Source: a virus
Direction: 5' to 3' (one strand)
Length of the DNA: 57,177 bases
Virus record (IMG/VR): IMGVR_UViG_3300020442_001429
Coordinates: 1-57,177 of that record
Both the position numbers and the translations under genes were made by a program. The notes beneath the pieces were generated by a model. It ran no database searches and was not told where the DNA came from. It worked only from the letters and a program-made list of their open reading frames with translations. Shown here piece after piece: positions 6,128 to 53,637 of the stretch. How positions within the stretch are numbered: the first letter of the stretch is position 1; every line of letters starts with the position of its first letter.

Positions 6128-6788
6128 CTTCTTTTCTTCCCATTGAATCAAATAAACAAACATAAGGTATTTGTCTATAAACTTGTAATTCTACATCATG
6201 AGGATAAACATACCCATGATTATAACTATAAAACCAACCTAAAGGAAAGTATTTTATTCTTGCTACACCCTTGTGCATAAAGAAATTATCTATCCCACGG
6301 TAGTACCATAGTATTTTTTCTAAATGTGTTTTAAAATATAGAGTGATATTTTCCTTATCCAAATTATCATTCCATCTTAAAATACTGCTATTTAAATCTG
6401 TGTATTTGTGAGGCACATGACTAGTTTCTTTTTTCATTTTATCTAAATCGTGCCAATGTGTCTGACCAAAACATAAACAGTCTTCAGGATCAAAGTTTGC
6501 TATGTCATCTATATTCTTTTGTATAATAACATCTAAGTCAAAGAATAAATTTTCACCTTTTTGTCTTACAACATTATCATCAAACAGATACATTTTATTC
6601 CACCACTTTTTTAATCTGTTTCCTTTTGGTAGTGGTATGACGGTAATATCTCTATCAATTCCTTTTGGGTTTTCAGTTAGGCAATAGAACTTAAAGTCCA
6701 TAGATAAATTTTCTTTGCACGCTTCGTAGATTTTGTCTACGTGCTGTGCAGAATATTTACTGCCCCATTTTACTGTATAGATATTCAC
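6114..6788 (-). CDS. DLD-motif glycosyltransferase, paralogue 4
   Basis: 224 residues from a GTG at 6788 that overlaps the previous stop as GTGA. It opens with MNIYTVKWGSKYSAQHVDKI and has YCLTENPKGI and then FFDLDVIIQ (D84, D86), the metal-binding Asp-x-Asp of GT-A transferases. A later block LNSSILRW, GIDNFFMH and WFYSYNHG matches the other three paralogues of this operon, where the same positions read SSVMCW/SCQVW, GTDNYH and YSYNRG. Substrate unknown. The four copies probably add successive sugars to one glycan. Confidence 0.7.
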   Translation of the reverse strand: MNIYTVKWGSKYSAQHVDKIYEACKENLSMDFKFYCLTENPKGIDRDITVIPLPKGNRLKKWWNKMYLFDDNVVRQKGENLFFDLDVIIQKNIDDIANFDPEDCLCFGQTHWHDLDKMKKETSHVPHKYTDLNSSILRWNDNLDKENITLYFKTHLEKILWYYRGIDNFFMHKGVARIKYFPLGWFYSYNHGYVYPHDVELQVYRQIPYVCLFDSMGRKEDVKF

Positions 6789-6946
6789 CAGTGTCTTAAT
6801 ACTCCTGATATAATAAAGAAACAAGTAAAGAAGTTTACAAGAACAATTACTGTTCTAAAACCTGCTACTATATCTGCCTCTTTAGAATCATCGCTTGCCT
6901 TTTCTCCTAAAGATTTTGCCCATAATTTCCAATAATAATAAATCAT
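6785..6946 (-). CDS. Tiny membrane protein (53 aa)
   Basis: A 54-codon frame, ATG at 6946, stop at 6785-6787. It starts MIYYYWKLWAKSLGEKASDD and ends with one hydrophobic helix, TVIVLVNFFTCLFIISGVL, and RHW. Its start overlaps the DUF2061 stop as ATGA and its stop overlaps the next GTG start as GTGA, so it fills the gap exactly. This coupling is strong evidence that it is a real gene. It is a single-span inner-membrane protein of unknown role, perhaps a partner for the DUF2061 protein. Confidence 0.65.
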   Translation of the reverse strand: MIYYYWKLWAKSLGEKASDDSKEADIVAGFRTVIVLVNFFTCFFIISGVLRHW

Positions 6947-7131
6947 TCAACTTTGCTCCATGCTCTCTCGTGTAAATAATAAACAATCATTTTAATAAAA
7001 AATTCAACACCACCTATTGCCAATGCTGCACTCACGTCTCCTATAATTAACCAAGCAACCATTATAGTGGTTAAGGTTGCTATAAGTCTCCAGGATAATG
7101 TTTTTAAAAAACTCTTTTGATAACTCTCCAA
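6943..7131 (-). CDS. DUF2061 small membrane protein
   Basis: 62 residues with a TTG start following AGGGG, directly after the stop of the upstream gene. The sequence K-T-L-S-W-R near residue 10, then IATLTTIMVAWLIIG, then AALAIGGVEFFIKMIVYYLHERAW, is the DUF2061 signature: two transmembrane helices with a C-terminal KxxxYYxHERxW. The function of DUF2061 is not known; it occurs in bacteria and marine phages. Its place among glycosyltransferases might point to envelope or glycan work, but this is only context. Confidence 0.8.
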   Translation of the reverse strand: MESYQKSFLKTLSWRLIATLTTIMVAWLIIGDVSAALAIGGVEFFIKMIVYYLHERAWSKVE

Positions 7132-34077: not shown

Positions 34078-34959
34078 ATGGCAAAACTTAGATATAGCGA
34101 AGCATTTTATTCAGTACAAGGTGAAGGAAGATTTGTAGGTGTTCCTAGTATTTTCCTTAGGGTGTTTGGTTGCAACTTTGAATGTAGAGGTTTTGGTCAG
34201 GAACGAGGTAAACTTATTCCTGTAGAAGAAATGCCCTATATGACAGATCCTAGAGCAGAAAAGGATAATGAAATAGCATATAAAAGTATCGAAGAACTTC
34301 CTGTTACGCCTATAGGTTGTGATAGTTCAGCATCTTGGGCGATGAAATACAAACATTTACAATTAACAAAGACAATAGACGAGGTGTTCGAACATATCGT
34401 TAGTTTACTTCCTAATGGTAAATTTGATGAGAGAGAAGATATACATTTAGTTATTACAGGTGGCGAACCTTTATTAGGTTGGCAAAGAGTTTGGCCTGAA
34501 CTATTAGAAATGTGTAAAGAAGTAGGTTTAAAGAATGTAACATTTGAAACAAATGGAACACAGAACTTACAACAACAATTTATAGATTATTTAAATGAAG
34601 ATGGAAAAGACATTCATATTACATGGTCAACATCTCCTAAATTATCTATCTCAGGTGAGGATCAATTCGATGCCCTTATTCCTGAAGCACTATTAGATAT
34701 GAACAAGGTAACTAACAGTCATTTATATAATAAATTTGTCGTTAGAGACTATATAGATTTTGAAGAAGTAGATTTATTTGTTGATGAATATAAATCTGCT
34801 GGTGTTGTTCTGGATGCAGTTTATTGCATGCCAGAAGGCGCAACATTGGAACAACAAGCCCTAACAGAAAAGGATGTTGCAGAAGCCTGTATGAAAACAG
34901 GTTACAAGTTTAGTCCAAGGTTGCATATTACATTATTCGGGAACGCATGGGGAACATAG
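34078..34959 (+). CDS. queE: QueE-like 7-carboxy-7-deazaguanine synthase
   Basis: 293 residues. YSVQGEGRFVGVPSIFLRVF and GCNFEC at 31-36, then VITGGEPLLGWQ and FETNGTQNL, are QueE marks. QueE is a radical SAM enzyme that contracts 6-carboxytetrahydropterin to CDG. The third cluster cysteine is not at the normal place (C-R-G-F); the likely partner is C81 in IGCDSSASW after an insertion of about 44 residues. The enzyme feeds the preQ0 pathway, with folE at 35450 and queD at 39905. It overlaps the PRTase gene by 13 bases. Confidence 0.88.
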   Translation: MAKLRYSEAFYSVQGEGRFVGVPSIFLRVFGCNFECRGFGQERGKLIPVEEMPYMTDPRAEKDNEIAYKSIEELPVTPIGCDSSASWAMKYKHLQLTKTIDEVFEHIVSLLPNGKFDEREDIHLVITGGEPLLGWQRVWPELLEMCKEVGLKNVTFETNGTQNLQQQFIDYLNEDGKDIHITWSTSPKLSISGEDQFDALIPEALLDMNKVTNSHLYNKFVVRDYIDFEEVDLFVDEYKSAGVVLDAVYCMPEGATLEQQALTEKDVAEACMKTGYKFSPRLHITLFGNAWGT

Positions 34960-35449: not shown

Positions 35450-36124
35450 ATGGCTTTTAATAAGACAAAAACTGACCCTGAATTGGGTCTTAAAATTCAC
35501 GAACACTTAGTCAAGTGTGGAGTAGAAACCCCCGTAGTAGATAATGGACTCACTCGTACAGAGAAGATTGAGATTATCAAAGATAAATTTACTGACATTA
35601 TGAATGTTATGGGACTAGATTTATCTGATGACAGTCTTATGGACACACCTAATCGTGTCGCTAAGATGTATATTAACGAGATCTTTTGGGGTCTAGATTA
35701 CGAGGCGTTTCCTAAATGTACAGCAGTTGAAAACAAAATGGAATATGAAAGTATGGTTGTTGAACGTAACATAAATGTTCAATCCAACTGTGAACATCAT
35801 TTTGTAGTCATTGATGGCGTAGGAACTGTGGCGTATATTCCAAACAAAAAGGTTTTAGGATTAAGTAAACTTAATCGTATAGTAGAATACTTTGCTAAGA
35901 GACCACAAATACAAGAACGTTTGACAGAACAAGTATATTATGCACTACAATACATTCTCGATACAGATAATATTGCAGTAGTTATAGATGCTCAACATTA
36001 TTGCGTAAAGAGTCGTGGTGTAGAAGACGTAGGTTCGTCTACTATTACAAGTAAACTAGGTGGAGGGTTCAAAGATGACCCAGCACTTAGAGCAGAGTTT
36101 ATGAACTTGATTGCTAGAAAGTAA
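35450..36124 (+). CDS. folE: GTP cyclohydrolase I
   Basis: 224 residues. TPNRVAKMYINEIFWGLDY, NVQSNCEHHFVVIDGVGTVA, YIPNKKVLGLSKLNRIVEYF, QIQERLTEQV and AQHYCVKSRGVED are the family signature, with zinc ligands in CEHH and HYC. It turns GTP into dihydroneopterin triphosphate, the first step to folate and to preQ0. With queD and queE here the preQ0 use is the more likely. A late promoter lies upstream. Sequence is complete with no missing catalytic residue. Confidence 0.95.
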   Translation: MAFNKTKTDPELGLKIHEHLVKCGVETPVVDNGLTRTEKIEIIKDKFTDIMNVMGLDLSDDSLMDTPNRVAKMYINEIFWGLDYEAFPKCTAVENKMEYESMVVERNINVQSNCEHHFVVIDGVGTVAYIPNKKVLGLSKLNRIVEYFAKRPQIQERLTEQVYYALQYILDTDNIAVVIDAQHYCVKSRGVEDVGSSTITSKLGGGFKDDPALRAEFMNLIARK

Positions 36125-38857: not shown

Positions 38858-39908
38858 TTTAGAATATGTAGAAACTCGTTACACTGCACAATGGAAAACA
38901 GAATTACCCCAGGCAATTGCAGACGCTAACGACACTTCAGTTACAATTATTGAAGGTACACATCAGGAACAAGATGTTTCGTCAGGAACATTCTTAGATT
39001 TCTCAGCGACTAACATATACAAAGCAGAACAAGTCCAAAAGATTGCACAACTGTTTAAGAACGGTGATGTAAAAGATGGAGACCACTTTGTATTTGCAGA
39101 TGCCTGGCACCCTGGTATTATTAATTTAAAATACATGGCAGACTTGCAGAATATTAAAATTATTACACATGGTCTGTGGCACGCAGGTAGTTATGATCCA
39201 CAGGACTTTTTAGGTAGGCAAATAGGTGATAAGCCCTGGGTTAGACATTCAGAGTATGCAATGTTTGATGGGTATGATAAAAACTATTTTGCTAGTCAAT
39301 TTCATATAAGTTTATTTGCACAGGAAATGTTTAATGATCCTGATAGCCAGGAGTATTTACAAAAGAAAATTGTAAGAACAGGTTGGCCTTTTGAATATCT
39401 ACAAAATGTTATTAGAAATGATACAATAGGTGTTGAAAAGGATAACTTAATATTGTTTCCTCACAGAAACGCACCAGAAAAACAGTTAAAAATATTTGAG
39501 GACTTAGCTTTACAACTCCCAGAATATGAATTTATTAACTGTGCAGATTATGACTTGAAGAAACAGGACTATCACAAACTATTAGGACAGGCAAAGATTG
39601 TGTTTAGTGCTAATCTACAAGAAACATTAGGTATATCATGTTATGAAATACTATTAGCGGGTGGCTATCCACTTGTTCCTAATAGATTGTCTTATAGTGA
39701 GATGTATCAATCGGAGTTTTTGTATCCTAGTGAATGGACATTGAGTTATGAAGATTATCAGAGTAACAAACAATATCTAATAGATAGGATACGATATATT
39801 ATGGAAAACTTTAATTCAAATGAATTGAGAAATGCAGCAGAAGAGAACACTGCATCATTAACGCAGCAGTATTTCTCTGCTAATAACTTATATCAGGAGT
39901 TAAAATGA
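38841..39908 (+). CDS. GT-B glycosyltransferase
   Basis: 355 residues. The C-terminal half has the family 1/4 pattern: NLILFPHRNAPEKQLKIFED, then LGQAKIVFSANLQETLGISC followed by YEILLAGGYPLVPNRLSYSE, with the E-x7-E donor-binding motif in ETLGISCYE. The N-terminal half (MIYLIDLEYVETRYTAQWKT) is a diverged Rossmann domain. It is unlike the GT-A enzymes elsewhere in the window. Its place among deazaguanine genes raises the idea that it glycosylates modified DNA or a queuosine-like base, but this is inference. Confidence 0.7.
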   Translation: MIYLIDLEYVETRYTAQWKTELPQAIADANDTSVTIIEGTHQEQDVSSGTFLDFSATNIYKAEQVQKIAQLFKNGDVKDGDHFVFADAWHPGIINLKYMADLQNIKIITHGLWHAGSYDPQDFLGRQIGDKPWVRHSEYAMFDGYDKNYFASQFHISLFAQEMFNDPDSQEYLQKKIVRTGWPFEYLQNVIRNDTIGVEKDNLILFPHRNAPEKQLKIFEDLALQLPEYEFINCADYDLKKQDYHKLLGQAKIVFSANLQETLGISCYEILLAGGYPLVPNRLSYSEMYQSEFLYPSEWTLSYEDYQSNKQYLIDRIRYIMENFNSNELRNAAEENTASLTQQYFSANNLYQELK

Positions 39909-40369
39909 ATATGAAAACATTTAAATATTATTCTACAAAAACTTATGGACACGAAGAAGGTTTGTCTTGTGTATTTAGACAACCTAATGCTACACATAGC
40001 CATTGCAGTTTACTACATGGTTATTCTTTGTCCTTTAGTTTTGAATTTGCATGTCAAAGTTTAGACGACAAAAATTGGGTTGTAGACTTTGGTGGATTAA
40101 AAGAACTAAAACAATGGTTGAAGGACAATTTCGACCACAAATTTGCAGTTGCAAAGGATGATCCTGCACTACAAGATTTTCTAGAACTAGAACAAAAAGG
40201 ACTAGCAGATGTTGTTGTAATGAATGGTGTAGGTTGTGAAAAGTTTGCAGAACAAGCATTTCACTTTGCCAGTGACTTAGTAAGTAAAAAAACTAATGGC
40301 AGATGTTACGCAACACAATGTGAAGTAAGAGAACACGGGGCTAATTCAGCGATATATAGGGCAGTCTAA
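39905..40369 (+). CDS. queD: QueD-like 6-carboxytetrahydropterin synthase
   Basis: 154 residues. SHCSLLHGYSLSFSFEF gives the metal-site His residues and the catalytic Cys, NWVVDFGGLKELKQWLKDNF the conserved VDF strand, and DHKF the catalytic Asp-His. The normal His-Gly-His reads His-Gly-Tyr, as I recall for other marine phage versions; the nearby HSH may supply the missing ligand. It converts dihydroneopterin triphosphate to 6-carboxytetrahydropterin, linking folE and queE. AGGAG precedes the ATG. Confidence 0.85.
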   Translation: MNMKTFKYYSTKTYGHEEGLSCVFRQPNATHSHCSLLHGYSLSFSFEFACQSLDDKNWVVDFGGLKELKQWLKDNFDHKFAVAKDDPALQDFLELEQKGLADVVVMNGVGCEKFAEQAFHFASDLVSKKTNGRCYATQCEVREHGANSAIYRAV

Positions 40370-41431
40370 ATGAAAGTCGCCCTAGTAACTGATACGCACT
40401 TCGGTGCGAGACAAGATAATTTACAATTCGACGCTTACTTCGAGCAGTTTTACACAGATTTTTTCTTTCCGTATTTACAAGAACACGGAATAAAAACAAT
40501 ATGTCATTTAGGTGATATATTTGACAGGCGTAAGTACATAAACTTCAACACTCTAAAATCCTGTAAAAGATATTTCTTTGCCAAGGCAGCAGAGTTAGGT
40601 ATTGAAATACATATGATACCTGGTAATCATGATACTTACTTTAAAAATACAAATGATGTTAATTCGCCTAATCTATTATTAGGAGAATATGATAATATAA
40701 CATTATACGAAGAACCAACTGAAATAATGTTGGACAGACACAAGGTATTATATTTACCTTGGATTTGTGGAGAAAATTATGACAGGACTATGGCCAAAAT
40801 TGAAGAGTCAGATGCAAGAACTGTATTCGGACATTTCGAATTCGCCGGTTATGACATGCTTCCTGGAATGCCTAATCTTCATGGCATGGATCCTAACACT
40901 TTTACTGGTTATGATCTTGTGGTCTCTGGCCACTTTCACCATCGTCATAGCAGAGGCAATATTACATACATGGGCAACCCTTACGAAATCACTTGGTCTG
41001 ACTATGGAGACCCTCGTGGATTCGCCGTATTCGACACGGTTAAAGGAGATTTGGAATATCATGACAACCCGTTTAGAATCTTCCATAAAATTTATTACGA
41101 CGATTCAACTTTCGAGGGCGTCAATGATATTAGGAACTTCGATTTTACTACTATTATTGGTGGTGTGGTTAAGCTTATAGTAAATAAGAAATCTGATTAC
41201 AAACTATTCGACAACTTTGTAGATAGATTATATCTTAATAACTTATTAGATTTAAAAATTATTGAGGACTTCTCAGAATTTGAAGATGAGGCATTAGGAG
41301 ATGATATTAACTTAGAAGATACAATGACACTTCTAAAAGAATATGTTGATGTAGTTGAAACAGACTTGGATAAACAAAAAATTAAAAATTTATTGCAGAC
41401 GCTTTATTTAGAAGCACAAGACACAGTATGA
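40370..41431 (+). CDS. 47: Recombination endonuclease subunit gp47 (Mre11-like)
   Basis: 353 residues, near T4 gp47 (339). Phosphodiesterase motifs are VTDTHFGARQ (D8, H10), CHLGDIFDRRKY, MIPGNHDTY and VVSGHFHHRH, all with the metal-binding residues in place. With gp46 it resects DNA ends for recombination-dependent replication and helps degrade host DNA. It starts on the base after the queD stop and overlaps gp46 by four bases. Confidence 0.95.
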   Translation: MKVALVTDTHFGARQDNLQFDAYFEQFYTDFFFPYLQEHGIKTICHLGDIFDRRKYINFNTLKSCKRYFFAKAAELGIEIHMIPGNHDTYFKNTNDVNSPNLLLGEYDNITLYEEPTEIMLDRHKVLYLPWICGENYDRTMAKIEESDARTVFGHFEFAGYDMLPGMPNLHGMDPNTFTGYDLVVSGHFHHRHSRGNITYMGNPYEITWSDYGDPRGFAVFDTVKGDLEYHDNPFRIFHKIYYDDSTFEGVNDIRNFDFTTIIGGVVKLIVNKKSDYKLFDNFVDRLYLNNLLDLKIIEDFSEFEDEALGDDINLEDTMTLLKEYVDVVETDLDKQKIKNLLQTLYLEAQDTV

Positions 41432-43131
41432 TACATTTTAAAAATATCAGATGGAAAAACTTTCTGTCTACAGGAAATGCTTGGACAGAAATAGACTTCG
41501 GAAGATCTCCTAGTACACTTATTATAGGTGAGAATGGTAGTGGAAAATCCACTTTGTTAGATGCTTTGACTTATACATTGTTTAACAAACCCTTTAGAAG
41601 TGTAACTATACCTCAACTTGTCAATTCTATTAATGGCAAGAACATGATGGCAGAGATTAACTTTCAAATAGGAAGTAAAAATTATTTGATTAGACGAGGG
41701 TTTGGACCGAGAGTATTTGAAATTGAAATAGATGGAGAGAAGTTAGATAGTGATGCTAATATTAGAGATATGCAAAAGTATCTTGAGGAAAATATTCTTA
41801 AACTAAATTACAAATCATTCACACAAATTGTTATGCTAGGAAGTACATCATTTACTCCGTTTATGCAGTTACATTTAGGTGCTCGACGTGAAATTATTGA
41901 GGACTTACTAGACATTAGCATATTTTCATCTATGAATCAGGTCCTAAAGACTAAGTATGTACAACTTGAAAACCAACAAAGAGTTATTGAAGGTGAAATA
42001 GAAGTAGCTAAGCAGAAAGCAAAAGTTCAAGAGGAATATATACAAACATTAGAGACTGATAAACAAGCGAAAGTCGATGACATTCTTAAACAACTAACGG
42101 AGGAAAAAGATGCGGTCCAGACAAACCAGGAAACGGCAAATGACCTTCATGAGGAGAAGGCGGCGCTTGGTGATGTTTCAAAAACAAAAAGCCAACTCGA
42201 CAAGTACAGAGACAGATTCCTCAGACAAATTGAACAACACGAAAAACAACTAGCATTCTTTGAGCATAATGATGAATGTCCTACTTGTCAGCAAGGCATA
42301 CCACACGAACACAAGAACGAATTATCCTCAAAGGATAAAGAAAAACTTACAGAAATAAAATCAGCACTAGAAGATTTAGAAACAAAATATGAGGAAGTTT
42401 CTATTTTATGTGATAAAGTAATTGACATTGATGAAAAGATAATGGATGCCAACAATGAAATTATTACTCATCAAAGAATTGTCCAACGTCTACAGTTAGA
42501 GCTTAATGATACTGAAACAAAAGTAGGTAATATTACAGAAGAAAAGGCAAAGTTAAAGAAACTAGCAAAAACAACTTTGTCTAAAGTAGAACAAAAGACA
42601 GAACTTACACAAGAAGAACATTATTACAATGTTGCCAGAGCTATGTTAAAAGATTCTGGTATAAAAACTAAGATTATTAAGGAATATTTACCTATCATTA
42701 ATAAATTAGTTAATAAATATCTACAGGCTATGGACTTTTTTGTTCAATTTGATTTAGATGAAACATTTAAAGAAACAATTAAGTCTAGACACAGAGATAA
42801 ATTTAGTTATTCTTCATTCTCTGAAGGTGAAAAACAAAGAATAGATCTCGCGCTAGTTTTTACATGGCGAACAATTGCTAAAATGAAAAATAGCGCTAGC
42901 ACAAACATTTTATTATTAGATGAGGTGTTTGATAGCTCTTTAGATGTAAACGGTACTGACTATGTTATGTCCTTATTGAATACAATAGGCGAAGATACGA
43001 ATGTATTTGTTATATCTCATAAAGGAGACCAACTGTTTGACAAATTTAGAAGTGTAATTAGATTTGAGAAACGACAAAACTACTCTGTCCTTGAGAATAG
43101 GAAAAGAGAAAATGAAATGGAAACACAATGA
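41428..43131 (+). CDS. 46: Recombination endonuclease subunit gp46 (Rad50-like)
   Basis: 567 residues, near T4 gp46 (560). The N-terminal P-loop is GENGSGKST (34-42), and two coiled-coil arms flank the zinc hook CPTCQQG (about 284-290). The C-terminal ABC signature is YSSFSEGEKQRIDLALVF and Walker B is ILLLDEVFDSSLD. This is the ATPase partner of gp47. The stop overlaps the glutaredoxin start by four bases. Confidence 0.95.
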   Translation: MIHFKNIRWKNFLSTGNAWTEIDFGRSPSTLIIGENGSGKSTLLDALTYTLFNKPFRSVTIPQLVNSINGKNMMAEINFQIGSKNYLIRRGFGPRVFEIEIDGEKLDSDANIRDMQKYLEENILKLNYKSFTQIVMLGSTSFTPFMQLHLGARREIIEDLLDISIFSSMNQVLKTKYVQLENQQRVIEGEIEVAKQKAKVQEEYIQTLETDKQAKVDDILKQLTEEKDAVQTNQETANDLHEEKAALGDVSKTKSQLDKYRDRFLRQIEQHEKQLAFFEHNDECPTCQQGIPHEHKNELSSKDKEKLTEIKSALEDLETKYEEVSILCDKVIDIDEKIMDANNEIITHQRIVQRLQLELNDTETKVGNITEEKAKLKKLAKTTLSKVEQKTELTQEEHYYNVARAMLKDSGIKTKIIKEYLPIINKLVNKYLQAMDFFVQFDLDETFKETIKSRHRDKFSYSSFSEGEKQRIDLALVFTWRTIAKMKNSASTNILLLDEVFDSSLDVNGTDYVMSLLNTIGEDTNVFVISHKGDQLFDKFRSVIRFEKRQNYSVLENRKRENEMETQ

Positions 43132-43352
43132 TAGAAATTTATGGAAAGACTAGATGTACATTTTGCAATTCAGCAAAAGCATTAGCAGAATCAAAAGGAC
43201 GTGACTACAAGTATTATCTTTTAGACGCGGATTATACAGAAGAGGAGTTTTTTGAAAAATTCCCTGGAGCGAGAACGTTCCCACAGATTGTTGTAGAAGG
43301 AAAAGCAATTGGCGGCTTTAATGAACTACAACAGGTACTTGGTGGCGGTTAA
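43128..43352 (+). CDS. grx: Glutaredoxin
   Basis: 74 residues of a compact thioredoxin fold. The active site is CTFC (C10, C13), followed by the cis-Pro segment RTFPQIVVEGKAIGGFNEL, which is the glutathione-binding part. It reduces disulfides using glutathione and could serve ribonucleotide reductase or the phage peroxiredoxin at 53026. The gene is joined to gp46 by an ATGA overlap. Confidence 0.92.
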   Translation: MIEIYGKTRCTFCNSAKALAESKGRDYKYYLLDADYTEEEFFEKFPGARTFPQIVVEGKAIGGFNELQQVLGGG

Positions 43353-43706
43353 TTGGAATTCGATATGGAAACATATAGGCCCTTACCACAGGGTTTGACT
43401 ATTAAACCATCTAGAATAGATGGACTAGGACTACATACAGAAAAGTCCTTCGATGCGGGTACAGTATTTGGTGAGACGCACGTTTTAGTACACAGCAGAG
43501 ATAGACACGAATGGATTAGAACACCTCTAGGAGGTTTTATAAATCATAGTGATAATCCTAATTGTTTTATTACAACGGATGCGGGAGACAGAACTTTATA
43601 CGCAATAAAGCCCATTAAAAAAGGCGAAGAGATAACAGTATTTTATAGATTTAAAGGGTACGATGGAATCATTGGTGATACAGGTACTCCAGACGTAGGA
43701 TGTTAA
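43353..43706 (+). CDS. SET-domain protein
   Basis: 117 residues. IDGLGLHTEKSFDAGTVFGE, then GGFINHSDNPNCFI (the NHSxxPN pseudo-knot strand, 64-70), and LYAIKPIKKGEEITVFYRF form a minimal SET fold, which in other organisms transfers methyl groups from SAM to protein lysines. The pre-SET and post-SET zinc parts are missing. The first codon is a TTG right after the glutaredoxin stop; an ATG at 43365 is an alternative. A phage or host target protein is expected but unknown. Confidence 0.75.
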   Translation: MEFDMETYRPLPQGLTIKPSRIDGLGLHTEKSFDAGTVFGETHVLVHSRDRHEWIRTPLGGFINHSDNPNCFITTDAGDRTLYAIKPIKKGEEITVFYRFKGYDGIIGDTGTPDVGC

Positions 43707-43707
43707 T

Positions 43708-44283
43708 ATGGAAGAAGCAGTAATAACAGAAACAGAAGCAACAGAGTTAGATGAATTAAAATTAATTGATCCAGACTCAGAAATGTTGAAACGTGCACCT
43801 GGTGCGTTTGATTTTGAATTGGACAATGCTGAAGAGTTGAGTGAACAACTTATAGACGCTATGAAAAAACTAGGAGGCGTTGGACTTTCTGCTAATCAAG
43901 TAGGAATTGATAAATCAGTTTTCGTTATAGGTGATGGCGCAGACTTTACTAAAACATTTTTCAATCCATTGGTTGTAGGTGTTAGTGAAGAAACAGAAGT
44001 AATGAAAGAAGGTTGTTTATCTTTCCCTGGACTATGGTTAATGGTGTCTCGCCCTAAACAAGTTTCCATTAAATATACAGACATCAAAGGTGAAGAAATT
44101 ATTGAAACTTATGAGGACGTAACAGCGAGAGTTATATTACACGAATACGACCACATGCTAGGTTTTAATTTTACACAAAGAGTTTCTCGGATCAAATTAG
44201 AACGTGCTATCAAAGCATTCAACAAGAAACTTAAAAAACACCAAAGACACTTAGCTCTACAAGCAGCTAACATAAATAAGTAA
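43708..44283 (+). CDS. def: Peptide deformylase
   Basis: 191 residues. All three motifs are present: GVGLSANQVG (57-66), EGCLS (101-105) with the metal Cys, and HEYDH (145-149). The N-terminus carries about 20 extra acidic residues and the C-terminus about 25 basic ones. It removes the formyl group from new proteins. Marine phages often carry it, and it may speed processing of host proteins made during infection. Confidence 0.94.
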   Translation: MEEAVITETEATELDELKLIDPDSEMLKRAPGAFDFELDNAEELSEQLIDAMKKLGGVGLSANQVGIDKSVFVIGDGADFTKTFFNPLVVGVSEETEVMKEGCLSFPGLWLMVSRPKQVSIKYTDIKGEEIIETYEDVTARVILHEYDHMLGFNFTQRVSRIKLERAIKAFNKKLKKHQRHLALQAANINK

Positions 44284-44300
44284 AAGAACAGGAGAACAAC

Positions 44301-44654
44301 ATGGCAGACGATACTTTTGATTTCGGTTTCACGGCTGTAGATGAACCAAGTGATAATGTACAGCAGCCTCAACCTGCTCTAAATAATGACGAAGTCCTAG
44401 ATAAACTTGCACAACTAGAAGCAAAGATTATCCAAGCGGACAATTCAAATATGGTGAATGAACATAGGGCTCTTATTGAGTCAGATGTTGCAGGCAAACT
44501 TCGCGATGTAGAAGATCTTGTACTACCTTTACTATATAATTTACAAAAGAATCCTGAAAAGGAATATATCCATTGGCCAAATAGAACGGCTATTATTGAT
44601 AAACAAATTGAAAAAATTAAGGCGGTAACAAGATTTTATGAGCGAGTCAACTAA
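44301..44654 (+). CDS. Conserved hypothetical phage protein
   Basis: 117 residues. The first 40 are acidic and low complexity (MADDTFDFGFTAVDEPSDNV). Two helices follow, and EYIHWPNRTAIIDKQIEKIK near the C-terminus is a conserved-looking signature with IHWPNR. I know of similar short proteins in T4-like marine phages but no function. AGGAG lies before the ATG. It overlaps the ClpP-like gene by 17 bases. Confidence 0.6.
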   Translation: MADDTFDFGFTAVDEPSDNVQQPQPALNNDEVLDKLAQLEAKIIQADNSNMVNEHRALIESDVAGKLRDVEDLVLPLLYNLQKNPEKEYIHWPNRTAIIDKQIEKIKAVTRFYERVN

Positions 44655-45240
44655 ACCAATAAACAATCCACAGCAACAGGGCAACGCTTTTGAACGTCCT
44701 GTTGCTAGAATATTTGATCTGTATCTATCAGGACCGATAGAATCAGCAGAAAAATACCAAGACTGGAACCAAATACTAAGGTCATCAAGTGAAAATGATG
44801 TAATAATATTGCACATCAATAGTAATGGTGGCAATATATTTTCATGTATTCAATTGATGCGTAGTATAAGAGAGTCTCAAGGAACAGTCGTAGCTTCAGT
44901 AGAAGGTATGTGTTTCTCAGCAGCAACTCTCTTATTTTTAGTTTCCGATGTATGTGAAGTAAGCGATCATTCGCATTTTATGTTTCATACATACAGTTCG
45001 GGAGCATGGGGAAAAGGGAACGAACAATTAGAATCAGTTATGGCTGATGATAAATGGGCACGGGCTCTTTTTAAAGACGTATATAAGGACTTTTTATCAG
45101 CAGAAGAACTAAAAGAAATGATGCAAGGCAGAGACTTTTGGTTATCAGCAGATGATGTTACAAAGCGTCTCGAGGCAAGGAATAAGAAAAACGCAAAAGC
45201 TAAACCTCGTAAAAGACTTTTGCAAAAACAAGGAAAGTAA
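44638..45240 (+). CDS. ClpP-like serine protease
   Basis: 200 residues. IFDLYLSGPIESAEKYQDWN, ILHINSNGGNIFSCIQLMRS and ASVEGMCFSAATLLFLVSD give the crotonase-like ClpP fold with a nucleophile Ser in CFSAA, and HFMFHTYSSGAWGKG the active-site His. The helix FLSAEELKEMMQGRDFWLSA carries the likely Asp region. A Lys/Arg-rich tail (KNAKAKPRKRLLQKQGK) replaces the usual end. Possible roles are prohead processing or host protein turnover. It ends in a TAATG overlap with the receptor gene. Confidence 0.82.
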   Translation: MSESTKPINNPQQQGNAFERPVARIFDLYLSGPIESAEKYQDWNQILRSSSENDVIILHINSNGGNIFSCIQLMRSIRESQGTVVASVEGMCFSAATLLFLVSDVCEVSDHSHFMFHTYSSGAWGKGNEQLESVMADDKWARALFKDVYKDFLSAEELKEMMQGRDFWLSADDVTKRLEARNKKNAKAKPRKRLLQKQGK

Positions 45241-46790
45241 TGAGAAATATATTATGGGTGCTTTTATTCACCACACTATCTACCACGGTAGCAGCTTCTA
45301 ATTCAGATTATGATGTAGAAGAAATAATTGTAGTAGGAGCATACATCGTTGAAGGACGATCAGATGCAGAATATGATGATAATTTATTGGAATCTATTAT
45401 GCCTACTAAGAGTTATGTTGCAGGAGGCCCTGGAGCATTTCAAGGTATCATGTTAAATGGTACAGACACGAAACATACAGCCGTTTACAAAAACGGAGTC
45501 CCTGTAAATGATCCTAGTTCTGGATGGTTTGATTTTGGAACAGAATTAATTTCAGGGCAAAATACAAAACTTATATCAGGACCTAATAGTGTCCAATTTG
45601 GTAGTGGTTCTATGGCAGGAGTCGTACTTATTGATGACGATTTATCAATAAGAGAAACTATTATTAAAGGAGCTAATGATAAAGCATACGTCTTTACATC
45701 TCTTGAAGGACTTCAACTGATACATTATAAAGGAACAAACGGTTCTGCTAGGAGTGATAACACAGAAGAAGATTGGTATGAAAATACAACTTTAAAATTT
45801 GGTGGTGATGTAAATGATTGGATTATTAGAGGTGAATTTACAGATTACACTTATGATTATGATAATTGTTGGACTGAAACACCTAATAATTGTGTACAAG
45901 ACGGAGAGAAAACTTTCTTCTCAGCAAGAAATGATAAAATTACTCTAGGTTATATGGGTAATGAAGCAACACATAACACAGGTTTTGAATTAGACACAGA
46001 GAGATTTTATCTTGATGCAACAGTTTACGAAGCCTATGGTATGAAAGTAGGAATCACAGGACAGAAAGAAACATACAACGAACTAGATAGAGATATTGGT
46101 GCTGTATGGTTTACTTGGACAGACGACAGAGGAGTTTCAGTAGGTTTGAGATACGAAGATGACGCAGAGATTATTAGAGTAGGATACGAAAATGATGATG
46201 TGAAAGTTTCTGTAGGTAATAGTTACAGACGTCCTAATCTATATGAGGAAAATGGTGACGATTGGGTAGCAGCTAATCCTAATTTATTACCTGAAGAAGG
46301 CATAGGTGCTGAGGTAACTTGGAATAAATTTTCAGTATTTTATAATGAATTTAGCGAAGGTATTGAATTTGATATGTCAGCATATCAATATGTGAACACA
46401 GGATCTTATGATGCTCATGGTGTTAAATATATGAACCAATGGCTAATGGATACAGGATCTATCTTTTTCTCTACTACATATACGCAAACAGATAAAATTA
46501 GAGTGCCTGATTGGATGACTAAAATCTCATATTGGACAGCAGGAAATATAGGTGGCATGACTTGGACAGGAGAGATTGCATACATCTCAGAACTTAATAA
46601 AGGAAAGGACTTTGATGGTAGAGAAATCGACGATGTAGACAACTTTGATATCCGTTGGAGTATAGAACCTGCCCCTAGACATACATTAATGTTCGCGATA
46701 AACGATGTTTTCGACAATAATTTTGAGGTTTTACCCGATTATCCAGCAGGAGGACGTGAATTTTCTCTTAGCTACCGCGTAAGTTATTGA
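45240..46790 (+). CDS. TonB-dependent outer membrane receptor (BtuB-like)
   Basis: 516 residues. Residues 1-20 are a Sec signal peptide. EEIIVVGAY (28-35) resembles a TonB box. The plug domain reads GTDTKHTAVYKNGVPVNDPS, then GWFDFG, then GPNSVQFGSGSMAGVVLI (114-131), as in BtuB-type receptors. The rest alternates beta strands and loops of a barrel (for example FYLDATVYEAYGMKVG). The end, NDVFDNNFEVLPDYPAGGRE and a final SYRVSY, has the closing aromatic of outer membrane proteins. It is shorter than BtuB (about 594 mature). Gene frame is intact. Substrate unknown. Confidence 0.85.
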   Translation: MRNILWVLLFTTLSTTVAASNSDYDVEEIIVVGAYIVEGRSDAEYDDNLLESIMPTKSYVAGGPGAFQGIMLNGTDTKHTAVYKNGVPVNDPSSGWFDFGTELISGQNTKLISGPNSVQFGSGSMAGVVLIDDDLSIRETIIKGANDKAYVFTSLEGLQLIHYKGTNGSARSDNTEEDWYENTTLKFGGDVNDWIIRGEFTDYTYDYDNCWTETPNNCVQDGEKTFFSARNDKITLGYMGNEATHNTGFELDTERFYLDATVYEAYGMKVGITGQKETYNELDRDIGAVWFTWTDDRGVSVGLRYEDDAEIIRVGYENDDVKVSVGNSYRRPNLYEENGDDWVAANPNLLPEEGIGAEVTWNKFSVFYNEFSEGIEFDMSAYQYVNTGSYDAHGVKYMNQWLMDTGSIFFSTTYTQTDKIRVPDWMTKISYWTAGNIGGMTWTGEIAYISELNKGKDFDGREIDDVDNFDIRWSIEPAPRHTLMFAINDVFDNNFEVLPDYPAGGREFSLSYRVSY

Positions 46791-52846: not shown

Positions 52847-53026
52847 ATGGACGAGAGTAAATTAGAAGTAACAATCCGAGAAGCGACTAACGGCTGGATT
52901 GTTGAAATTAATCTGGATGGTGAAACAGTAGAATACATTTTTACTAGACCCAACCCAGCAATTAATTTAGTTAGAAAAGTAATGAAGGGAGAATTAGATC
53001 CTTTCAATTCAGGGGAGGATGAATAA
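52847..53026 (+). CDS. Small acidic protein (59 aa)
   Basis: A 60-codon frame from the ATG at 52847, with AGGAG upstream, to TAA at 53026. MDESKLEVTIREATNGWIVE, then INLDGETVEYIFTRP, is a three-stranded beta sheet followed by a helix (AINLVRKVMKGE). The stop overlaps the peroxiredoxin ATG as TAATG. The ribosome site and overlap make it a real gene. It sits inside the replication group and may be a small regulator; no family recognised. Confidence 0.7.
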   Translation: MDESKLEVTIREATNGWIVEINLDGETVEYIFTRPNPAINLVRKVMKGELDPFNSGEDE

Positions 53027-53637
53027 TGGGAGAGCATGTCTTTACAGAAACAGCGCAAATCGCAGATACTATCCCACCCTTTAAACTAATCAAGCAGGTT
53101 AAAACAACCTCAGGCGTATCTAAATTTGTGGACATGGATAACGATGTCCTATTTACAGGTAAAAGAGTAATTATATTTGGATTGCCTGGTGCGTTTACAC
53201 CTACTTGTTCTAGTAAACAACTACCAGGGTTTGAAACTCAATATCATTTGTTTAGAAACTTGGGTATTGATGACATCTATTGTATTAGTGTCAACGATAC
53301 TTTTGTTATGAACGAGTGGGCAAAGGATCAAGGATTGGTAAATGTAAAACTTATTCCAGATGGTAGCGCCCAACTTACAATTAAACTTGGTATGGATGTT
53401 CGTAAGGACAACCTACAGTTTGGTGTTAGGAGTTGGAGATATGCTGCAATCTATGATGATGGCAAACTCGTACAGAGTTTTATTGAAGAAGGGTTTGGTG
53501 ATAACTTTGAGGAAGATCCTTATGTTGTTAGCACACCCGAAAATGTGATGAAATGGATTAGAGAAAATCCTTTTGAAGGGAAAGATATTAAACTTGATAT
53601 CTCAGATTCGACAGATATTAAGGAAGATATTTCCTAA
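53026..53637 (+). CDS. Peroxiredoxin (Prx5-type)
   Basis: 203 residues. VIIFGLPGAFTPTCSSKQLP carries the PxxxTxxC active site with peroxidatic C61, followed by DIYCISVNDTFVMNEWAKDQ. This is the Prx5/hybrid peroxiredoxin type, which is usually reduced by glutaredoxin or thioredoxin; a glutaredoxin is encoded at 43128. It removes peroxides, which could protect infected cells. It is inserted between the clamp and clamp loader genes. The C-terminal 30 residues are an acidic extension. Confidence 0.9.
   Translation: MGEHVFTETAQIADTIPPFKLIKQVKTTSGVSKFVDMDNDVLFTGKRVIIFGLPGAFTPTCSSKQLPGFETQYHLFRNLGIDDIYCISVNDTFVMNEWAKDQGLVNVKLIPDGSAQLTIKLGMDVRKDNLQFGVRSWRYAAIYDDGKLVQSFIEEGFGDNFEEDPYVVSTPENVMKWIRENPFEGKDIKLDISDSTDIKEDIS

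Follow-up and report, generated by a model that had tools for sequence, protein, structure and literature searches.

The SET gene and its surroundings

The window, that is, the whole stretch of DNA analysed here, is a virus record of 57,177 bases with T4-like genes, a fragment from a marine T4-like phage, whose gp23-like capsid protein shares 71% identity with that of Methylophilales phage Melnitz and 69% with that of Pelagibacter phage HTVC008M, and in which no tRNA genes were found. A SET-domain ORF occupies positions 43353-43706 of the plus strand (117 codons from a TTG start), between genes for glutaredoxin and peptide deformylase as the first-pass annotation had placed it, in the following neighbourhood.

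40370..43352 (+): genes ahead of SET and packed closely against it: gp47-like, gp46-like, glutaredoxin (ORFs, Pfam, PHROGs)
43128-43352 (+): glutaredoxin (PF00462, E 8.3e-13)
43353 (+): alternative SET start, TTG, 117 aa
43365..43706 (+): SET-domain protein gene of 113 aa, with ATG as the likelier start (Pfam SET, homologue starts, model)
43708-44283 (+): peptide deformylase (PF01327, E 6.5e-36)
43708..45240 (+): peptide deformylase, a 117-aa protein of no assigned function and a ClpP-like protease downstream (ORFs, Pfam, PHROGs)

Judged by its matches to PF00856 (SET; E 3.5e-11, 43.9 bits against a curated cut-off of 22.4), to phrog_28741 (E 1.4e-17; residues 7-100 on profile positions 2-95 of 100) and to PBCV-1 vSET, the top PDB sequence match of the single window protein (E 3.6e-6), the ORF is a real gene and not a chance reading frame. 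By sequence, phrog_28741 is the same family as the window protein, and it has no function assigned in PHROGs. A 66-row family profile (alignment A2) matched KMT2D (8e-11) and vSET (3e-10) in the PDB, and Pfam SET matches all 66 members of that alignment, while the NCBIfam profiles gave no match to the window protein. The NCBIfam model of a SET-bearing Dot/Icm effector weakly matched 17 of the 66 members (best E 0.00025); this was read as no more than a SET domain in common, and kinship to that model was dropped. The motifs GLGLHT, NHSDNPN and ITVFYRF listed in the first-pass annotation are all present in the ORF. Its length of 117 residues holds from the TTG at 43353, but the true start is probably the ATG at 43365, giving 113 aa, because homologues begin with M(E/D)TYRPLP or MYKPLP at the position corresponding to this ATG.

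Several further genes of the window were recorded alongside.

6946-7131 (-): DUF2061 membrane protein (PF09834, E 6.1e-22)
34078-34959, 35450-36124 and 39905-40369 (+): GTP cyclohydrolase I (PF01227), PTPS (PF01242) and a QueE-type-looking radical SAM ORF
45240-46790 (+): protein of 516 aa that has a signal-like N-terminus and the plug domain of a TonB-dependent receptor (PF07715, E 2.3e-6)
53026-53637 (+): peroxiredoxin (PF08534, E 2.8e-24; phrog_2281)

A 7-deazaguanine pathway in the window is possible, the QueE-type identity being a reading of the ORF sequence and the other two Pfam matches. The TonB-plug protein found no PHROG match, and 17 of 81 loci have a relative of it in this position (cluster 17); an outer-membrane-receptor-like protein is an odd thing to find in a phage. 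A small protein resembling the DUF2061 protein adjoins the SET gene in two bacterial loci (L088, L091), and a peroxiredoxin-like gene adjoins the chromosomal SET gene in seven Porticoccaceae loci.

Predicted fold, cofactor site and selection

An AlphaFold2 model of the window protein, built from alignment A2 (pLDDT 84.6, pTM 0.72; tail 104-113 disordered), has a SET fold. Foldseek ranked vSET (3kma) first (E 3.2e-6), and VIA-align gave Z 12.3 against 3kma (rmsd 2.6 A over 89 residues, 32% identity) and Z 12.6 against MLL1. The GxG, NH and Tyr of the window protein align with those of vSET and KMT2D; we take GxG and NH to be the cofactor motifs and the motif-IV tyrosine to be the catalytic residue, as in SET enzymes. 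Conservation was counted over the 138 distinct ORFs of the family that reach 85 aa (2 of 140 were shorter and were dropped). Among these relatives N60, H61, G22, G36, R52, T53, G56 and E89 are invariant (138/138), and Y94 and N66 are each found in 137 of 138, the sole exception at Y94 being a truncated ORF.

43374..43385 (+): Y-R-P-L, codons 4-7, the YRPLP N-terminal subfamily signature (Y4 in 135, P6 in 129 and L7 in 134 of 138)
43422..43430 (+): G-L-G, codons 20-22, SET motif I, predicted SAM site (G20 in 135 and G22 in 138 of 138)
43470..43481 (+): G-E-T-H, codons 36-39, subfamily signature GxxH (G36 in 138 and H39 in 137 of 138)
43518..43535 (+): RTPLGG, codons 52-57, subfamily signature before the NH motif (codon conservation counts, partly circular: R52, T53 and G56 138/138, P54 136/138, G57 132/138)
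43542..43562 (+): NHSDNPN, codons 60-66, SET motif III, predicted SAM site (N60 and H61 in 138 of 138)
43629..43646 (+): E-I-T-V-F-Y, codons 89-94, SET motif IV with the putative catalytic Y94 (E89 in 138 and Y94 in 137 of 138)

The conservation of RTPLGG-type and GEE..Y residues is partly circular, because RTPLGGF or TPLGGF and a GEE..Y-type pattern served as search patterns in two of the searches for relatives; NHSDNPNC was one of six patterns in the first IMG/VR scan. Since GxxH and RTPLGG replace other residues at their places, specificity may differ from that of canonical SET proteins. Loss of the SAM-binding residues, raised in the first-pass annotation as an argument against a methyltransferase, was looked for and not seen, both N60-H61 and G22 being kept throughout. 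The SET gene gave dN/dS values of 0.058-0.120 against 8 of 9 homologues and of 0.058-0.213 over 43 of 45 pairs (the remaining 2 without a value, and dS near saturation in most pairs), and the protein is therefore under purifying selection. Fold, cofactor motifs, catalytic tyrosine and selection thus all bear out the earlier description of a minimal SET-domain methyltransferase in a phage, with its activity as a prediction, and the window protein is most likely an active SAM-dependent protein-lysine methyltransferase.

Distribution in phages and relation to known SET proteins

The first-pass annotation had called lysine methylation by a phage enzyme unusual; the gene itself is not rare. A relative is encoded in 371 of 393 candidate IMG/VR stretches, from which 80 loci were retained, and with an alignment query in at least 593 stretches (593 of 600 among the matches listed); on this similarity the window gene belongs to a common phage family. 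Relatives also occur in isolates of cyanophages, pelagiphages and podophages. A tblastn search of 50,697 phage records, made without patterns, matched only 8 (P-SSM7, P-RSM6 and P26218 with two records each, Kolga and AG-345-P14); in P-SSM7, P-RSM6, Kolga and P26218 the gene sits at differing genome positions and is annotated as a hypothetical protein. Two SET ORFs stand in tandem in 9 of the 80 IMG/VR loci, with motifs intact in both for the 8 uncut loci. The second, divergent gene lies directly upstream of the first (L013:5585-5989, L014-L017, L019, L021, L022, L027) and has NHS..PN and the tyrosine. In L072 a 2OG-Fe(II) oxygenase gene (6295-6849; phrog_81, E 3.4e-14) directly follows SET, and a gene of the same cluster follows it in L068.

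SET enzymes are known as eukaryotic chromatin writers and, in some bacteria, as effectors delivered into eukaryotic hosts; to our knowledge, phages are not usually part of this picture. vSET has proven H3K27 activity, and the bacterial host of the phage has no histones. This chlorovirus H3-Lys27 methyltransferase (PBCV-1 A612L; PDB 1n3j, 3kma) is likewise a small stand-alone viral SET protein and is clearly similar to the window protein at about 30% identity, but the phage protein has fewer residues between GxG and NH, where the alignment has a gap of about 16 residues (82 query versus 98 vSET residues aligned). Two proteins of uncultured Caudovirales phages, UniProt A0A6J5PTS6 and A0A6J5L8Y2, are named SET proteins and show 23-29% identity in a fold alignment, and ORF62 of Stenotrophomonas phage Ps15 is given as a SET domain protein, likened here by its description only (PMC9025141). 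Phage SET proteins are thus already known as a kind, through UniProt names and one phage paper. A figure legend places a SET domain gene in a genomic island of HIMB59 (PMC10734472), and the main-text passages of a review of bacterial SET proteins hold no match to 'phage' (PMC3980110). Passages of PMC9022992 use the term for Ig I-set domains. The literature search, judged by listings and passages, found no characterised phage SET enzyme.

An accessory and mobile gene

With the window deformylase as bait, 46 loci were obtained, in 41 of which gp46 is visible upstream. It directly abuts deformylase in 27 of the 41; glutaredoxin lies between them in 11 and SET in 7. The sister phage Melnitz has one other gene in this slot and no SET match. 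Two contigs, one bearing L220 and L006 and the other L227 and L128, have glutaredoxin but no SET in the slot and carry SET elsewhere, in the former after a family B DNA polymerase gene. The neighbourhood of glutaredoxin and deformylase is an insertion slot with variable content, and in the lineage of the window SET is an accessory gene that moves but is retained. For such a gene, having glutaredoxin and deformylase as neighbours reveals little of the target, and a function read from adjacency to glutaredoxin, deformylase and ClpP was dropped. Across phage groups, neither a fixed partner gene of SET nor a fixed link to structural genes was found.

Bacterial relatives and tree

A scan of bacterial genomes gave 28 loci of the SET subfamily, 19 chromosomal and 9 phage-like as judged by their flanking genes; a few marine bacterial chromosomes encode relatives. 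Members at E up to 1e-15 were found in 3 of 80 genomes in the family of genome G001, 1 of 53 in that of G003 and 6 of 149 in that of G002, and in the class of G001 51 of 274 genomes matched at E up to 0.001, with only G001 itself above 47 bits. The subfamily thus appears rare among the sampled bacterial genomes. Small bacterial SET proteins are stand-alone domains of about 95-120 aa, as in the phage family, but 50 of the 274 genomes of that class have only generic matches (at most 47 bits), and the four short bacterial proteins viewed are without YRPLP/RTPLGG. By gene names read from sequence, seven Porticoccaceae/HTCC2207 loci (L092, L093, L094, L096, L100, L101, L111) have the order fabB-SET-peroxiredoxin-ssb, and three Bacteroidetes loci (L097, L098, L107) have SET between argC-like and proC-like genes, inside an arginine-type biosynthesis operon.

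In a tree of 114 columns, which is poorly resolved, with many forks open and a bootstrap that had not settled, the window belongs to a clade made up of phage rows only (97/88), the bacterial rows need at least three switches by starred branches, and the SAR11 copy L106 is sister to two cyanophage copies (100/96). A recent acquisition from a known host was dropped, the window standing among phage rows and the bacterial rows requiring those switches.

Late promoters and expression timing

The sequence TATAAATA, which we take to be a T4-type late promoter core, occurs 14 times in the window.

467, 5240(-), 11046, 11049(-), 19818, 21799, 23926, 25731, 25737 and 27114: presumed late promoter cores at or just before ORF starts
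28999, 35381, 51697 and 55111: further presumed late promoter cores at or just before ORF starts

The number of sites is not unusual (14 versus a mean of 9.0, sd 3.1, with at least 14 in 9 of 100 shuffles); only their position is, since each of the 14 stands at the start of an ORF or just ahead of it (mean 1.9 and maximum 8 in 2000 random placements). No such site was found on the plus strand between 35388 and 51697, a stretch of about 16 kb that holds the gp47, gp46, SET, deformylase, ClpP-like and peptidase genes. This suggests that the window SET gene is expressed early or middle rather than late, with read-through possible. The stretch therefore points to a host target more than to a capsid target, and the capsid, which the first-pass annotation had listed among possible substrates, is disfavoured in the window phage. 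Direct support was seen neither for the capsid nor for the ribosomal proteins and RNA polymerase listed with it. A match to (N)ATAAATA near the SET start occurs in 6 of 188 loci, and a late promoter at SET starts was dropped as a general feature.

SET domains fused to tail-fibre-like proteins

Rhodoferax phage P26218 has SET as the C-terminal portion of a protein of 291 aa; the N-terminal portion of this protein is a match to short tail fibre proteins (phrog_12032, E 2.9e-28). Both parts are spanned in 66 of 74 IMG/VR loci, and GxG, RT, NH and Tyr are kept in 53 of 53 fusion SET domains (52 distinct proteins and P26218).

L085:5455-6330 and L256-L325: SET as the C-terminal domain of a podophage protein resembling short tail fibres (motifs 53/53)

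One GenBank podophage record names the fusion after the PBCV-1 methyltransferase, and the Vibrio phage matches listed for a fusion query cover at most half of it, its N-terminal part. The fusions (phrog_34170, P26218) have RTP-G, NHS and Tyr in common with the window SET but differ from it in the tail-fibre-like N-terminal part, in a distant sequence (29%) and in having no H39 equivalent in the printed rows. They suggest a tail target only for this sibling podophage subfamily.

Discussion

The reading that we favour, with somewhat better than even confidence, is that the window encodes a competent stand-alone mini SET lysine methyltransferase that acts on a host protein during takeover and is carried as accessory cargo; within it we infer the activity, lysine as the acceptor, the timing and a target in the host instead of the virion. 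Graded by part, an enzyme is very probable, a lysine methyltransferase probable and a host target possible. SAM would bind at GLG (20-22) and Asn60-His61, and a lysine of the substrate protein would enter from the other face, beside Tyr94, to receive methyl groups. The gene would probably be transcribed together with the gp47-gp46 recombination block, in the early or middle phase and not in the late one, and most likely an accessible lysine of a host protein would be modified during takeover, the gene being kept as accessory cargo.

An active lysine methyltransferase could instead modify a virion protein (tail, baseplate or capsid) and so alter assembly, stability or adsorption, as the podophage fusions with their intact motifs and the P-RSM6 gene, which adjoins gp25 and a baseplate wedge gene, would have it. 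We consider this unlikely for the window phage, whose SET gene lies in the stretch without T4-like late promoters; the P-SSM7 gene comes after nrdA-nrdB, and no constant association with structural genes is seen across phage groups. Distinctly less probable is a methyltransferase of another acceptor (a protein N-terminus or a small molecule) or a SAM-consuming counter-defence protein. The subfamily's own invariant residues H39, R52 and T53 (H39 in 137 of 138) would fit another acceptor, but the nearest relatives of known structure, both in sequence and in fold, are protein-lysine methyltransferases, and against a counter-defence role PADLOC-DB anti-phage defence profiles gave 0 families at E up to 0.1 for the window protein. 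That the protein has no catalytic role and is a remnant of the SET fold or a binding module seems very improbable: the beta-clip fold class, to which the SET fold is assigned in a passage of PMC5344890, also holds non-enzymes, and the window protein is shorter than vSET, but its cofactor and catalytic positions are nearly invariant (138/138; 137/138) and dN/dS is near 0.1.

Returning to the favoured reading of a lysine methyltransferase aimed at the host, the family is conserved in hundreds of marine phage contigs and kept despite moving, which suggests that protein methylation pays off in infection. Cultured phages (P-SSM7, P-RSM6, Kolga, P26218) encode such proteins, which are about 100 residues long, and this makes the question directly testable. 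A broader idea, which we put forward only tentatively, is that a large family of protein-lysine methyltransferases serves tailed phages in taking over the host, as the counterpart of vSET in bacteria. If so, some T4-like phages would make one or two SET proteins early that act on a host protein of chromatin, transcription or translation by methylating it, the podophage SET domain on its tail-fibre-like protein could travel with the particle, and lysine methylation would be a general layer of phage-host interaction.
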